Source of the DNA: Steroidobacteraceae bacterium
GTDB lineage: Bacteria; Chloroflexota; Limnocylindria; QHBO01
DNA length: 32,759 nt
Assembly (NCBI GenBank): GCA_025935615.1
Contig: JAICUY010000014.1
Location: forward strand, 1 to 32,759
Reading direction: 5' to 3'
Each line of letters begins with the position of its first letter. Within the stretch, counting starts at the first letter, position 1. Shown piece after piece: positions 27,190-32,759 of the stretch. A program made the translations under genes and the position numbers. The notes beneath the pieces were generated by a model that worked only from the letters and a program-made list of their open reading frames with translations, was not told where the DNA came from and did no database searches.

Positions 27190-28056
27190 CTAGCTGACCA
27201 CCTCGGTGGCGAACTCGGGCTGCTCCAGCATCTCGCCCCGTGACGGCTTGTCACCGCCCTCGATGATCCGGCGCCGCACCCGTCCCGACAGCGTATCGAT
27301 GACGATGACCGTCAGCACGATCACGATCAGCGCCATGCCGGCCTTCTCGTAGCGCTGGTAGTTGATGGTGTTCACCAGCGAAACGCCGATGCCGCCGGCA
27401 CCCACCACGCCCAGGATCGCCGACTCTCGGATGTTGATCTCGAAGCGGTAGATCCAGAAGGCGACGATCTCGGGCAGCACCTGCGGCAGCACGCCCCAGC
27501 GCAGGACCTGCGACTGCCGCGCGCCGGTCGCGCGGCTGGCCTCCACCGGCCCGCCGTCGATGCCTTCGATCAGCTCGGCGGTCAGCTTCCCGAGCGTGCC
27601 GGTCGAGTGCACGCCGATGGCCATGGCGCCCGTGAACGCGCCGAGGCCGAAGAGCGGAATGAACAGGATCGCCAGGATCAGCGTTGGGAAGGCCCGAATG
27701 GCATTGAGGACCTGCCGGATCACGTTGCTGACGATCGAGCCCGAGACGTTCTTCGCCCCCAGGAAGCCGAGCGGGAACGAAAGGATGGCGCCCACGATGG
27801 TGCCGAACCACGCCATCTGGATCGACTGGACCATGCCGCCCCAGGCGGTTGGGAAGTACTCCCACTCCGGAAAGAAGAGCATCTTCCCGAAGATGTTTCC
27901 CAGCGTCGCTGGGAGTCCCAGCAGACGGTCGAGCCGCAAGTCGGTGGTGACCAGCGCCCATGCCAACAGGGCCGCGAGCCCGACGAGGAGCAATGTCCGA
28001 CCCATGCGCGAGGGGCGCGCCGGACGAGCGAGACGTGCGTCTGCGACCGTGGCCAT
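27190..28056 (-). CDS. phnE: Phosphonate-type ABC permease PhnE (second copy)
   Basis: The 288-residue permease has about six hydrophobic segments, a conserved GFLGAKNVSGS followed by RAFPTLILAILFIPLFG, and the EAA loop ELIEGIDGGPVEASRATGAR followed by LPQVLPEIVAFWIYRFEINIRESAILGVVGAGGIG. This matches the PhnE family; the adjacent phnE upstream is similar, so the channel is probably a heterodimer. The start ATG is three nt after the previous phnE stop. The C-terminal tail (RRRIIEGGDKPSRGEMLEQPEF) is polar. The substrate may be phosphonate, phosphite or phosphate esters; no C-P lyase or phosphite dehydrogenase gene is in the window. Confidence 0.93.
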   Translation of the reverse strand: MATVADARLARPARPSRMGRTLLLVGLAALLAWALVTTDLRLDRLLGLPATLGNIFGKMLFFPEWEYFPTAWGGMVQSIQMAWFGTIVGAILSFPLGFLGAKNVSGSIVSNVIRQVLNAIRAFPTLILAILFIPLFGLGAFTGAMAIGVHSTGTLGKLTAELIEGIDGGPVEASRATGARQSQVLRWGVLPQVLPEIVAFWIYRFEINIRESAILGVVGAGGIGVSLVNTINYQRYEKAGMALIVIVLTVIVIDTLSGRVRRRIIEGGDKPSRGEMLEQPEFATEVVS

Positions 28057-28059
28057 CGG

Positions 28060-28848
28060 CTACGTCAGCCTCCGGCGCAACCGCTCCGAGATGAACTCGA
28101 TGACGACGACCATCAGGAACAGCTCGAGGACGACCAGCGCAACGCGGTCGTAGTTGAAGAAGCGACGCTGCGTCTCGAGCAGGAGGCCGATCCCGCCGGC
28201 GCCAACGAATCCGACGACCGCGGACGCGCGGACATTGAGCTCGAACGTATACAGGGCGTATGCGACGTAATTGGGCAGCACCTGCGGCAGGACGCCGCTG
28301 GCGACCACCTGGGTATGCCGTGCGCCGGTCGCGCGCGCCGCCTCGATCGGCCCTCGGTCGACGCCGTCGACCGTTTCGGACAGCAGCTTGGCGACGACGC
28401 CAACGCTGAACAAGATCAGGGCCAGGACCCCCGGCAGTGGTCCGACCGACAGGGCAGCCACGAAGATGAGCGCGTAGAGCACGTCCGGAATCGAACGAAC
28501 GACGCTCAACACCGATCGGTCGATCCAGAAGACGACGGCATTCGGTGCGGACACGCGAGACGCCAGGAAGGCGACCGGCAGTGCGATGCCGCAGCCGATC
28601 ACCGAGGCGATGACTGCCATCTGGAAGGTTTCGATGATCGGATCGATCGTCCGGTCGAAGAACGAGAACTGCGGTGGCCAGAACTCCGAGAAGATCTCGC
28701 CGGCCTGGCCGAGGTTGGCGATGGTCCGTTCGAAATCGGGCGCCAGGCCGAGAACGACCCACACGGTGATGGCCACGAACGCGAGAAACGAGATCGCCAG
28801 CCACGGAGTGCGTGGCGGTTTCGCGGGTCGTGCGCTCGGCGCGGTCAT
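28060..28848 (-). CDS. phnE: Phosphonate-type ABC permease PhnE (first copy)
   Basis: The 262-residue permease has six hydrophobic segments, VAFLASRVSAPNA, RSIPDVLYALIFVAALSVGPL, and the EAA loop ETVDGVDRGPIEAARATGAR followed by LPQVLPNYVAYALYTFELNVRASAVVGFVGAGGIG. It pairs with the second PhnE. The ATG at 28848 is the last of four ATGs spaced exactly 17 nt apart; no ribosome-binding site is visible, so translation probably depends on coupling through the mini-ORFs described separately. It starts MTAPSARPAKPPRTPWL, the beginning of which comes from the repeat unit. Confidence 0.93.
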   Translation of the reverse strand: MTAPSARPAKPPRTPWLAISFLAFVAITVWVVLGLAPDFERTIANLGQAGEIFSEFWPPQFSFFDRTIDPIIETFQMAVIASVIGCGIALPVAFLASRVSAPNAVVFWIDRSVLSVVRSIPDVLYALIFVAALSVGPLPGVLALILFSVGVVAKLLSETVDGVDRGPIEAARATGARHTQVVASGVLPQVLPNYVAYALYTFELNVRASAVVGFVGAGGIGLLLETQRRFFNYDRVALVVLELFLMVVVIEFISERLRRRLT

Positions 28849-28916
28849 GAGAGGACGGCAGTCATACGACGACGGCGGTCATGGGACCATGGCAGTCATC
28901 AGACCGCGGCGGTCTC
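28832..28916 (-). repeat. 17-bp tandem repeat generating stop/start-coupled mini-ORFs
   Basis: Reading the minus strand, ATG codons occur at 28899, 28882, 28865 and 28848, each followed by AC(C/T)GC(C/G), with exactly 17 nt between. The first three open six-codon frames (MTAMVP, MTAVVV, MTAVLS) whose stop TGA overlaps the next ATG as ATGA; the fourth is the phnE start. The phnC stop overlaps the first ATG as TGATG. The phnC end (GACCGCCGCGG) looks like a fifth, degenerate unit. All four ATGs lack ribosome-binding sites. Confidence 0.85.
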
Positions 28917-29672
28917 CAGCACGTCGTCGGCGGTCAGCGAGCGGCCGTAGATGTCGCGGAAGACGTTCTCGTCCGCCTCGTGCCCCGGTCCGTCGAAGAC
29001 GACCTCGCCGTTGCGCATGCCGATCAGCCGATCGCCGTACTGCCGCGCCAGATCCAGGAAGTGCAGGTTCGTGATCGTGGTGATGTGAAGCTCACGATTG
29101 ATGCGCTGCAGGTCACGCATCACCACGTGACTGGTCGGCGGGTCGAGGCTGGCCACCGGCTCGTCGGCCAGGATGATCTTCGGCTGCTGGGCCAGCGCCC
29201 TGGCGATCCCGACGCGCTGCTGCTGGCCGCCCGACAGGTTGCTGGCGCGGACGTAGGCCTTGTCCACGATGCCGACGCGCTCGAGCGACTGCATGGCGAG
29301 CTCGACGTCGCCAGCCGCATACATGCCGACCAGCGAGCGCCAGGTCGACGTGGCGTGCAGGCGGCCCATCAGCACGTTGTTCAGTACGCTCGTGCGCTTC
29401 ACGAGGTTGAAGGTCTGGAAGATCATGCCGATCTTCGAGCGGATTTCGCGCATCTGTCCCGGGCTCGCCTTGCGGACGCTGACGCCGTCAATGGTGACGT
29501 CGCCGCCGGTCAGCGGCACGAGGCCGTTGATGGCGCGAATGAGGGTTGACTTGCCGGCGCCGGAGAGACCGACGATGACGATCATCTCGCCATCCGGAAT
29601 CTCGAGCGTCAGGTTCTTGAGGGCATGGACGCCGCCGGGGTAGGTGACCGACGCGTTCTCGAATCGAATCAT
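28899..29672 (-). CDS. phnC: Phosphonate-type ABC ATPase PhnC
   Basis: The 257-residue ATPase has Walker A VGLSGAGKSTLIRAINGL near residues 34-51, the Q-loop IGMIFQTFNLVKRTSVLNNV, signature ASNLSGGQQQRVGIARALA near 149-164, Walker B KIILADEPVASLDP, and the switch His in HITTITNLHFLDLA. This is the normal PhnC pattern. It energises the two PhnE permeases. The start ATG at 29672 has no purine-rich site and follows a terminator-like hairpin, so its level relative to phnD is probably reduced. Its C-terminal residues ETAAV come from the 17-bp repeat region, so the original end may have been shorter or longer. Confidence 0.95.
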   Translation of the reverse strand: MIRFENASVTYPGGVHALKNLTLEIPDGEMIVIVGLSGAGKSTLIRAINGLVPLTGGDVTIDGVSVRKASPGQMREIRSKIGMIFQTFNLVKRTSVLNNVLMGRLHATSTWRSLVGMYAAGDVELAMQSLERVGIVDKAYVRASNLSGGQQQRVGIARALAQQPKIILADEPVASLDPPTSHVVMRDLQRINRELHITTITNLHFLDLARQYGDRLIGMRNGEVVFDGPGHEADENVFRDIYGRSLTADDVLETAAV

Positions 29673-29684
29673 GGTGGGGATGAG

Positions 29685-29715
29685 AAAAGAGGCGGGCCCG
29701 TGACGGGCCCGCCTC
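29685..29715 (-). terminator. Rho-independent-type hairpin between phnD and phnC
   Basis: On the minus strand GAGGCGGGCCCG (29715-29704), loop TCA and CGGGCCCGCCTC (29700-29689) form a 12-bp perfect stem followed by TTTTCTC. It lies in the 54-nt gap right after phnD. Since phnC-phnE-phnE continue on the same strand, it is probably a partial terminator setting binding-protein excess. Confidence 0.85.
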
Positions 29716-29726
29716 CCTCGCGTCGA

Positions 29727-30791
29727 CTAGCCTTCGAAGCCGAGCTCGTCCACCGCCTGGCGGACCAGGTCGAGCGCATCGAGGTTCGGCTCGGTGAACG
29801 CCGTGATCTGGTAGATCGAGTCGAGCACCTCGGCGCCCTCGTCGGTCTCCGAGTAGTCGATCAGGGCCTGCTTGATCTGCTCCTTGAGATCATCGGGCAG
29901 GTCGCCCGAGACCGCCACCCCGTCGTTCGGGATCTCCGGCCCGTAGGCGAACACCACCACCTCGTTCGCCACGTCGCAGTCGGTCGTGGCGACGGTGCGG
30001 GCATCGTCGAAGCTCACGCCCACTTCCGCGTCACCCTCGCAGACCGCGATGACGGAGCCATCGTGGCTGCCCGGGAAGATCGGTTCGACGTCGTTCTCCG
30101 GGTCGATGCCGTTGGTGATCAGCACGGTGGCCGGGAAGATGTAGCCCGAGGCCGAGGTCTGCTCCACGAACGACATCGTGGTGCCCGGCTCGAGGTTCTC
30201 GAGCGCCTCGAGTCCGATCGGGCCCTCCGGGGTCTCGTCGTTCTCGCGCGCGGTGCCATTGCAGTTGAGGTAGGTCACGTCCGCATCATCGACGACGCGC
30301 GTGTTCTCCTCGGGATCCGAGATGGTGCAGTACTTGTCCGGGTTGTTGGTGAAGAACTGGGTGTGATAGGTGCCGGAACCGAAGCGCTCCGACTGCAGAA
30401 TGACTTCTGCGTTCGCACGATCCATCGCCTGCAGCAGGCCGAATGGCGGAAGGGCCGCGATCTGCGCCTGGCCGGTCTCCATGGCGGTGACGAGGCCGGT
30501 GTAGTCGTTGGTGACGGTGCCCTCGACCGGGATGCCGAGCTGCTCGCTCAGGTAGTCCGCCAGCGGCTGGATGTCCTCGACCAGCTGCCCCGCCTCGCTC
30601 GAAGGCACGAAGCCGATGGTGAGCTTGTCCGGCGTCTCGGCCGCCTCGGACTCGGCCGGCTGGCTCTCCGCGGCCTGGCTGGCGGGCGCTTCGCTTTCCT
30701 CATCGGCGCTCGGGGATGCCCCGCCGCCGGCGCATGCCGTCGCGATGAGCATCATCGTGACGAGCACTGCAAGAAGTCGCAGGTGCTTCAA
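29727..30791 (-). CDS. phnD: Phosphonate/phosphite-type ABC substrate-binding lipoprotein PhnD
   Basis: The 354-residue protein has a signal peptide with lipobox (IATAC at about residue 20), a Ser/Glu/Ala-rich linker with repeats of ESEA and AAES, and a PhnD domain: KLTIGFVPSSEAGQL, PLADYLSEQLGIPVEGTV, ETGQAQIAALPPFGLLQAMD. It binds the anionic substrate outside the membrane for PhnCE. The start is TTG at 30791, four nt after GGAGGAGG, the strongest ribosome-binding site in the window; the frame is open into the tRNA region only by chance. It contains six Cys in two clusters, unusual for PhnD, possibly disulfides. The 146-nt leader contains hairpins and a promoter. Confidence 0.94.
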   Translation of the reverse strand: MKHLRLLAVLVTMMLIATACAGGGASPSADEESEAPASQAAESQPAESEAAETPDKLTIGFVPSSEAGQLVEDIQPLADYLSEQLGIPVEGTVTNDYTGLVTAMETGQAQIAALPPFGLLQAMDRANAEVILQSERFGSGTYHTQFFTNNPDKYCTISDPEENTRVVDDADVTYLNCNGTARENDETPEGPIGLEALENLEPGTTMSFVEQTSASGYIFPATVLITNGIDPENDVEPIFPGSHDGSVIAVCEGDAEVGVSFDDARTVATTDCDVANEVVVFAYGPEIPNDGVAVSGDLPDDLKEQIKQALIDYSETDEGAEVLDSIYQITAFTEPNLDALDLVRQAVDELGFEG

Positions 30792-30937: not shown

Positions 30938-31013
30938 TGGCGCGCCGGACAGGATTCGAACCTGCGACCTTCGGCTCCGGAGGCCGACGCTCTATCCACT
31001 GAGCTACCGGCGC
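30938..31013 (-). tRNA. tRNA-Arg (anticodon CCG)
   Basis: The 76-nt sequence folds as a full cloverleaf with acceptor GCGCCGG/CCGGCGC, D-arm GCTC/GAGC, anticodon stem TCGGC/GCCGA with loop CTCCGGA (anticodon CCG, reading CGG), variable loop AGGTC, T-arm GCAGG-TTCGAAT-CCTGT, discriminator G and an encoded CCA. It lies between the candidate small RNA and phnD. No att-like duplicate of its 3' end is seen nearby. Confidence 0.97.
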
Positions 31014-31114
31014 CAGTTGTCTTGGCCGGTCGACGATGCTGGCCGACCCCGACCGGCCCATCGTACCCGAGGCGCAGCCGATGCGGGCGGTGCTGGACAG
31101 GCGATGGAAAGTCG

Positions 31115-31140
31115 AAGGCCCCCGCGGAAGCGGGGGCCTT
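31115..31140. terminator. Strong hairpin, terminator of candidate small RNA or PPIase operon
   Basis: Perfect 11-bp arms AAGGCCCCCGC (31115-31125) and GCGGGGGCCTT (31130-31140) around a GGAA loop. On the minus strand it is followed by CGACTTTCC, only a mild T-tract. It is placed between the PPIase operon and the tRNA-Arg gene. Confidence 0.8.
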
Positions 31141-31257
31141 CATTGCTGCCGGATTCGCTAATCGCAAGGGCATCTTTCACGCACGGTTTCCCGCACTACC
31201 CTAACCCTAACCTACCCATGGCCTTGCGACCAGTAGTGAATCGCTGTGCGAACAGCA
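31115..31257 (-). ncRNA. Candidate structured small RNA (about 145 nt), family unknown
   Basis: The gap 31141-31345 is visibly less GC-rich than its surroundings and contains no credible gene. On the minus strand a promoter (TTGTCT-N17-TATTCT) would start transcription near 31257, giving an RNA of about 145 nt ended by the hairpin at 31140-31115. The 5' end folds as GCTGT-TCGC-ACAGC; a CGG-GAAA-CCG GNRA hairpin and a GATT-AGCG-AATC hairpin follow, and 5' TGCTG can pair with CAGCA near the 3' end. I do not see SRP, 6S, RNase P or tmRNA hallmarks. Confidence 0.45.
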
Positions 31258-31262
31258 TCCAG

Positions 31263-31291
31263 AGAATAGACCACGCGTTCCCTTTAGACAA
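31263..31291 (-). promoter_or_regulatory. Promoter of candidate small RNA
   Basis: TTGTCT (31291-31286), 17-nt spacer and TATTCT (31268-31263) on the minus strand, a good sigma70-type match, in the gap downstream of the PPIase gene. Confidence 0.6.
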
Positions 31292-31345
31292 GGTTTTCGA
31301 GGTTTAGATTCCTTTACAAAGCAAAGCGGTTCCGCAGGCGAGCGG

Positions 31346-31990
31346 CTACTCCTCGGCGGCGGAAATCGTGATCGACTCGATCGTCACCGGCGTGAGCGGG
31401 ACGCCGATCTGCGGGTCGTTCACCGGGACGGCGGCGATCTCGTCGATGACATCGGTGCCGGAGGTGACCTGGCCGAAGATCGTGTAGGACGGTGGTAGGC
31501 CCGCGCTCAGATCGGCGAGGGCGATGAAGAACTGGCTGCCGTTGGTGCGCGTGTCGTTGGCCATCGACACCGAATACGGCTCATACGTCAGGCCGCTGGC
31601 CGGCGGCTCGATCTCGAACTCGTAGCCTGGACCGCCCGTGCCGATGCCCTGGAAGTCGCCCTCATGCTCCTTCGTGCCCGGATCGCCAGCCTGGATGACG
31701 AAGCCGGCCAGCACGCGGTGGAACTTGATGCCGTCGTAGAAGCCGCAGCGAGCCAAGGCGACGAAGTTGGCCGTCGCGATCGGTGCCTCATCGCCGTGCA
31801 GGTCGAAGGCGAACTCGCCCTCGACCGCGCCCGAGAGGCGGATGGTCGCCACGGCCGCGTTCTCGAGCGTCGCCTGGGCCGAGACCGATGTCGGCGCCTC
31901 GGTCGGGCACTCGGGCGCCGGCGTCGGCGTCGCGCCGGCGGTGCAGGCGGTGAGCAGCAGGACTGCGAAGAGGAGCGTGAGGCGCTTCAT
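31346..31990 (-). CDS. Cyclophilin-type peptidyl-prolyl isomerase lipoprotein
   Basis: The 214-residue protein has a signal peptide with lipobox (LLLTAC, Cys near residue 16), a Pro/Thr/Glu linker, and a cyclophilin domain: APIATANFVALARCGFYDGI followed by KFHRVLAGFVIQAGDP, with catalytic Arg in FHR, then SVSMANDTRTNGSQFFIAL and YTIFGQVTSGTDVID. It catalyses cis-trans isomerisation of Pro bonds in exported proteins at the outer face of the cytoplasmic membrane. The ATG overlaps the stop of the DUF885 gene as ATGA. The Trp of classical cyclophilins that binds cyclosporin is absent, as in many bacterial members. Confidence 0.94.
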   Translation of the reverse strand: MKRLTLLFAVLLLTACTAGATPTPAPECPTEAPTSVSAQATLENAAVATIRLSGAVEGEFAFDLHGDEAPIATANFVALARCGFYDGIKFHRVLAGFVIQAGDPGTKEHEGDFQGIGTGGPGYEFEIEPPASGLTYEPYSVSMANDTRTNGSQFFIALADLSAGLPPSYTIFGQVTSGTDVIDEIAAVPVNDPQIGVPLTPVTIESITISAAEE

Positions 31991-32759
31991 CGGCCGTTCA
32001 GCTCGAACAGCCGACGCGCGTAGCTGACGGGCATGGTGCCGGCGTACATGAGCGTGTCGTGGAAGCGGCGAAGGTCGAAGTCCGCGCCCTGCGCGCGCCG
32101 GACGTCGTCGCGCAGCCGTTCGATCATGTGGCGGCCGAAGAGGTAGGAGAGCTGGTAGGTCGGGGTGGAGGTGTAGCGCTTGACCTCCGCCACGGCGGCG
32201 GGCCGCTCGAAGCCCGTCTCACTGATCAGCCGCTCGACGGCCTCGTCGAAGCCGATGAGCCCGCGATGCAGCTTGACGTCGAGGATGATGCGAGTCGCGC
32301 GCCAAATGGCATCGGTGTGGACGATGTACCAGCCCTTCGGCGTGTCGTCGAAGCCTGCCTCCTTCATCATCCGCTCGCAGTAGAACGCCCAGCCCTCGGT
32401 GAACTCGGGCGCGCCGGAGAACAGCCGGACCAGGCTCGGGTTTGTGATTGCCGCGGAGAGCTGGAGGTGGTGCCCGGGGTAGGCCTCGTGGACCGAGGTG
32501 TTGCTGATCGAGGCGCGATTGTGCTCGCGCATCATGTCGGGCGAGCTTGGCGGCGTGACGATGTACGTGCCGACCGGCGTCGGATCGAACTTGGCGGGGT
32601 CGTAGTAGGCAGCGAACGGGATCAGGTGCCGGATGAAGGACGGCGTCTCGATGACGTTGAGGTGGTCCTCCTCCGGCGGCGTCGCCAGGCCGTTCGCGAC
32701 CACGAAAACGCGCGCTCCGTCCATCGACTCCCGGTACTCGTTGAGCGCCTCCGCGAACG
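31987..32759 (-). CDS. DUF885-family predicted metallopeptidase, C-terminal part (runs off right edge)
   Basis: About 257 codons are present and the frame continues beyond 32759. The sequence shows the DUF885 hallmark ISNTSVHEAYPGHHLQLS, a HExxxGH metal-binding variant, plus EGWAFYCERMM as a likely third-ligand region, and RYTSTPTYQLSYLFGRHMI near the C-terminus. The family is thought to include metallocarboxypeptidase-like enzymes of the gluzincin type; substrate unknown. The upstream signal peptide or start lies outside the window. The stop overlaps the PPIase ATG, so both genes are translated from one mRNA. Confidence 0.93.
   Translation of the reverse strand, partial: FAEALNEYRESMDGARVFVVANGLATPPEEDHLNVIETPSFIRHLIPFAAYYDPAKFDPTPVGTYIVTPPSSPDMMREHNRASISNTSVHEAYPGHHLQLSAAITNPSLVRLFSGAPEFTEGWAFYCERMMKEAGFDDTPKGWYIVHTDAIWRATRIILDVKLHRGLIGFDEAVERLISETGFERPAAVAEVKRYTSTPTYQLSYLFGRHMIERLRDDVRRAQGADFDLRRFHDTLMYAGTMPVSYARRLFELNGR

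Follow-up and report, generated by a model that had tools for sequence, protein, structure and literature searches.

What, if anything, is encoded in the spacer between a cyclophilin-type gene and a tRNA-Arg gene in the 32,759-nucleotide stretch of DNA analyzed here (hereafter, the window)? A sequence-only reading had proposed that this spacer is noncoding and poorer in GC than its surroundings, and that it specifies an independent small RNA for which no known class was recognized; conservation and covariation in relatives were suggested as a check. In the current study, we found both, and a lack of conservation is contradicted. The promoter and the terminator are kept among relatives, covariation is strong and no reading frame is conserved, all of which speaks for an independent small RNA. 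From sequence comparison, we are close to certain that this is a real structured small-RNA gene. The family to which it belongs, that of a single class of Chloroflexota, is new. It was by comparison among relatives that the boundaries of the gene, its secondary structure, the invariance of one loop, its class-wide distribution and its location were established.

Gene limits and genomic neighbors

The predicted RNA lies on the minus strand, at 31107 to 31258; its promoter, its structural elements and the two flanking genes are on that strand too. Blast found the element in 61 of the 101 relatives compared, and the window gave a 56-bit match, at 31160 to 31231, to a covariance model (R1) that comprises 20 sequences and leaves the window's own family out. 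By blast, identity was 81 to 99% within that family (f1 of the families f1 to f5 of the window's class), and in the other families of the class it was mostly the core alone that matched.

The promoter claimed in the sequence-only reading is present, with TTGTCT as the −35 hexamer (31286 to 31291) and TATTCT as the −10 hexamer (31263 to 31268), separated by a 17-nt spacer, and its position is kept across relatives. A promoter-like pair was found at a similar place in 101 of 118 upstream regions, against a mean of 2.7 after shuffling, and in nearly all of these 101 it sits 39 to 48 nt upstream of the CATGGG core. The 5′ end of the RNA would fall 6 to 8 nt past the −10 hexamer. The strong terminal hairpin was likewise found (GAAGGCCCCCGC-TTCC-GCGGGGGCCTTC, 31114 to 31141, followed by GACTTT), giving a transcript of about 150 nt whose 3′ end would lie within the T-rich tail; a terminator hairpin with such a tail is kept in 89 of 105 relatives, and terminator pairs are among the top covarying columns. 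A generic promoter and terminator scan called nothing at the RNA locus, since the T-tract is weak and TTGTCT/TATTCT does not reach the score that the scan requires. The retention of both promoter and terminator among relatives argues for an independent transcript, as against a leader or a 3′ UTR. The predicted transcripts of other families of the class are longer; in f3 and f5, the consensus folds show one more hairpin on the 3′ side. Within the window's family, we also observed that TGTAAAGGAATCT/TAAAGGATTCTTA is kept upstream of the −35 hexamer (at about 31300 to 31330 in the window); perhaps this stretch is an activator site or an UP element.

The upstream neighbor (31346 to 31990), which is not part of the RNA, encodes a lipoprotein-like, cyclophilin-type peptidyl-prolyl isomerase (NCBIfam peptidylprolyl isomerase A, 4.5e-19, under the model cut-off). 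Of 123 loci, 117 have a cyclophilin-type gene upstream of the RNA and on its strand; three of the six exceptions are truncated upstream. The downstream neighbor, tRNA-Arg(CCG) (30938 to 31013, by an Rfam tRNA match), is a frequent one, found in 45 of the 123 loci; in most loci it was not found within 700 nt, and the downstream gene varies. One possibility is that the element is a small-molecule sensor or a cis-regulator of a neighbor, acting within the cyclophilin 3′ UTR or as a leader of tRNA-Arg. Its very constant position behind the cyclophilin gene, with tRNA-Arg following in 45 loci, would suit such a role, and near-invariant loops, one of which is described below, are typical of aptamers. 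However, we find cis regulation difficult to reconcile with a promoter that lies past the cyclophilin gene, with a terminator ahead of the tRNA gene, and with a downstream neighbor that changes from locus to locus, and we consider it quite improbable. Cyclophilin homologues in f2 and f4 have no similar RNA alongside. Past the tRNA gene, the minus strand of the window carries phosphonate-type ABC transporter genes at 27190 to 30791 (a substrate-binding protein, a PhnC ATPase and a PhnE permease, by NCBIfam), together with an additional, putative permease-like frame at 27190 to 28056.

It might also be argued that there is no functional RNA here at all, and that the spacer is structured by chance or is a bidirectional terminator region. 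Strong terminator hairpins do fold well by chance, and simple scans found no promoter. The stretch is GC-poorer, as had been noticed: 31142 to 31330 has a GC content of 50.8%, as compared with 69.1% in the whole window, and no 189-nt stretch in the sample fell below it. The transcript is predicted to fold at −71.2 kcal/mol, against −56.3 kcal/mol for shuffled sequences (z, −3.69; better than 200 of 200 shuffles), an advantage that is owed in good part to the terminator hairpin. Nevertheless, class-wide conservation with compensatory changes and a conserved promoter weigh against a chance spacer, and the compensatory changes, together with the match of R1 to the window, contradict it; we regard this explanation as extremely improbable. 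Nor is the stretch likely to encode a peptide. No peptide-coding reading frame is open across all families of the class, and the loop described below differs by indels of 1 to 2 nt among relatives, which together argue against coding and agree with the earlier description of the stretch as noncoding. An antisense frame that is open in 18 of 18 f1 sequences was rejected, as it is not open in f3 or f5 and its variable columns show no third-position excess.

Secondary structure and the conserved loop

At the 5′ end, the hairpin GCTGT-TCGC-ACAGC, already seen in the letters alone, is present at 31243 to 31256, and the alignments show a CTG..CAG hairpin of changing sequence kept at its place in f3. 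Its 5′ arm has an alternative partner in GGCAGC (31145 to 31150), for which the consensus folds of f3 have GGGACAGC paired with GCTGCCCC. In the RNAalifold consensus folds of f1 and f3, a closing stem (P1) joins GATTC (31238 to 31242; counterpart in f3, GCTGCCCC) to GAATC (31152 to 31156), and the end-to-end pairing that had been suggested thus held up in kind. Between P1 and the next helix, P2, f1 has an 8/5-nt internal loop, and the f3 consensus leaves a single nucleotide or so unpaired on the 5′ strand.

Helix P2 pairs TCGCAAGG (31222 to 31229) with CCTTGCGA (31162 to 31169), both arms being supported by compensatory changes. At its top, CAT (31218 to 31220) pairs with ATG (31171 to 31173), and this CAT is invariant in the covariation analysis of 60 sequences; below CAT:ATG, P2 is usually broken by one mismatch, at the same place (C31221 and C31170 in the window). 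The apical hairpin, P3 (GTGCGG-GAAA-CCGTGC, 31181 to 31196), has four of its five model pairs covarying, with 100% of cells paired. A further claim did not survive. The letters of a GNRA hairpin, GGTC-GCAA-GGCC, are present at 31220 to 31231, but of 13 relatives, 5 break the pairing, which is no better than in shuffles; the same bases serve P2, and this hairpin is not supported.

In an alignment of 60 distinct sequences fitted to the covariance model, and hence biased towards it, P2 (including CAT:ATG) and P3 together gave 138 compensatory cells. Shuffled data gave 34.2 ± 5.7, and slid partners never more than 21; 13 of 17 pairs changed on both sides, and 96.5% of cells were paired. The outcome was the same (38 compensatory cells against 11.7) when 20 sequences from outside the window's family were aligned with MAFFT, with no fitting to the model. 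Within the window's family, a gap-free alignment of 13 sequences was 99.5% paired, with 11 compensatory cells against 3.6, and P2 was paired in 99% of cells. When all columns were compared with all others in f3, pairs of P2, P3 or the terminator made up 7 of the 20 strongest.

Between P2 and P3 lies an unpaired, G-rich loop, GGGTAGGTTAGGGTTAGGGTA (31197 to 31217), which across the family reads GGGUAGGU, 0 to 2 nt and then GGGUNAGGGUA. The opposite strand carries a conserved unpaired GUGAUAG or GUGAAAG (GTGAAAG at 31174 to 31180 in the window; GTGATAG in most of f3 and f5). By column conservation over the 60 distinct sequences, 18 of the 21 loop columns are unchanged in at least 59, while the pairs of P2 vary freely; about a third of these sequences came from an exact-pattern scan whose pattern includes the loop, which inflates its conservation, and the rest, from blast and model matches, show the same conservation pattern as the pattern-scan loci. 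Given that the stems vary freely and the loop is nearly invariant, it is probably the loop that does the work of the molecule. A frozen loop over covarying stems would be the mark of a scaffold that displays a recognition surface, and we propose the loop as the recognition site. ViennaRNA did not choose a G-quadruplex when quadruplexes were allowed; a two-layer quadruplex in the loop is conceivable but lacks support.

An invariant exposed loop would also be consistent with pairing to a target RNA or with the binding of a ligand. The RNA could, for instance, work in trans as an antisense small RNA, its invariant G-rich loop pairing with C-rich target mRNAs; the loop is exposed and near-invariant, its length is suitable, and the gene stands alone with a promoter and a terminator. 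A chance complement of 11 to 12 nt would, by our own estimate, occur several times per high-GC genome. However, the tight class-wide covariation of P2 and P3 and the conserved unpaired GUGAUAG go beyond the needs of a simple seed, and we think an antisense role rather unlikely.

Distribution and known RNA families

R1 matches 121 of 177 genomes of the class, mostly with one copy per genome. Over 400 genomes sampled from the phylum it gave 40 matches, all 40 within the class and none outside. When about 85,000 species genomes were scanned for an exact pattern, 117 stretches came back, and all matches listed were from Chloroflexota, including CSP1-4, “Candidatus Aquidulcis,” a “Candidatus Limnocylindrales” bacterium and QHBO01; the class that carries the RNA is probably Limnocylindria. 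Families f2 and f4 gave no match even when the threshold was permissive, and several fairly complete f3 genomes likewise have no copy. The RNA is therefore not strictly universal in the class, although assembly gaps could lie behind some of the absences in f3. Viral contigs gave no match to the RNA.

The window's assembly holds a second copy, 85% identical, on another contig (L002, G000:C46:1228-1446), where its neighbors are a cyclophilin gene and an enzyme gene that resembles the one at 31987 to 32757 in the window. Either the gene was duplicated or the binned genome includes a contig from a related species. A few binned genomes have two or three copies: L144 and L168 (JAKAHU010000003 and 012) are instances, and G142, which is listed as 8% contaminated, has three matches.

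At gathering thresholds, Rfam recognized only the tRNA, and none of its 4227 families matched the RNA in the window or in members of other families of the class, in keeping with the earlier view that no known class is represented. A permissive scan gave chance-level matches, mostly on the terminator hairpin, and members of other families of the class behaved alike. Among the matches in the window, BSnc120, RsmY and BjrC68 scored far under gathering scores and were limited to the terminator hairpin or its surroundings (RsmY, 20.5 bits against a gathering score of 57, covered the hairpin), and we rejected them as chance. Divergent forms of SRP RNA, RNase P RNA and tmRNA were rejected as well, as their own Rfam models find them elsewhere in 22, 30 and 31 of 31 genomes, respectively; in the window's own genome, RNase P RNA and tmRNA were found elsewhere, and SRP RNA was not found in the incomplete assembly. 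The literature searched held nothing on the RNA of the window, and we found no small RNAs described for such bacteria.

The case of 6S RNA deserves separate consideration. A divergent 6S RNA was rejected, there being no match above the RF00013 gathering cut-off in the window or its relatives. None of 101 genomes of the class group has a detectable 6S RNA, whereas 28 of 151 genomes of other Chloroflexota gave matches above the cut-off; controls also matched. This difference raises the possibility that the new RNA stands in functionally for 6S RNA by binding RNA polymerase. The f3 fold, with its closing stem, 3′-side hairpin and internal stem, is loosely 6S-like, and Ms1 RNA provides a precedent, showing that a 6S-like RNA can be unrecognizable by sequence (PMC9130861). 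On the other hand, the roughly single nucleotide between P1 and P2 on the 5′ strand of f3 leaves no open 6S-type bubble on that side, the RNA has no Rfam 6S score, and f2 and f4, lacking both the new RNA and a detectable 6S RNA, show that there is no strict exchange; we judge such a replacement to be improbable. Around two Chloroflexota 6S genes, we found no synteny with cyclophilin or tRNA. Since neither RNA was detected in f2 and f4, these families may hold yet another RNA in such a role, or none.

Proposed mechanism and relation to known RNAs

Our proposal is that transcription starts at the sigma-70-type promoter and ends at the intrinsic terminator, to yield a stand-alone transcript. In it, P1, the long, covarying P2 and the apical P3 would hold out the near-invariant loop and the short GUGAUAG-like strand. 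Presumably, the RNA acts in trans, and the loop would be the binding site of a conserved protein, rather than of an RNA or small-molecule partner. The RNA might then work as an RNA-protein particle, or it might titrate the loop-binding protein. Protein binding in trans is how 6S and CsrB RNAs work. As a whole explanation, a stand-alone small-RNA gene with a protein-binding loop, acting in trans, is the one towards which we lean, if only slightly; the protein-binding mechanism taken by itself we hold to be an evenly balanced proposition. A bolder version, which we offer tentatively and consider somewhat unlikely, is that the RNA belongs to a new core RNA-protein particle found in a single class of Chloroflexota. 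The nearly invariant G-rich loop, perhaps quadruplex-like, would bind the protein, and the RNA would possibly be a global regulator that takes the place which 6S RNA has in related classes.

The hosts are soil, groundwater and lake bacteria, most of them uncultured. That the RNA is kept class-wide, with one part almost unchanged, suggests an important job; for class-wide RNAs with a near-invariant exposed motif, central roles often emerge. Now that a model, a fold and a delimited motif are available for the family, a direct search for its partner becomes feasible.

With 6S RNA (RF00013) and the Ms1 RNA of Actinobacteria, the new RNA shares a stand-alone, clade-wide, structured nature, a closing and an internal stem, and a synteny-conserved locus. 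Unlike them, it has no 6S match and no open 5′ bubble, is shorter in the window's family, and displays a nearly invariant G-rich loop. The two also differ in genomic setting; while the Ms1 RNA gene in Actinobacteria adjoins an HAD-IB hydrolase gene (PMC9130861), the new RNA lies beside cyclophilin and tRNA-Arg in Chloroflexota. With the decoy RNAs CsrB and RsmY (RF00195 for RsmY), it would share, as a proposal, exposed and repeated G-rich motifs that titrate a protein, although its motif is GGGUNAG-like and theirs is GGA in hairpin loops. Finally, although it differs from the candidate structured RNA motifs that Weinberg et al. described in 2010 from comparative genomics (PMC2864571) in matching none of the 4227 Rfam families, it is otherwise akin to motifs of that kind, such as Chloroflexi-1 (RF01698): supported by covariation and found in one clade.
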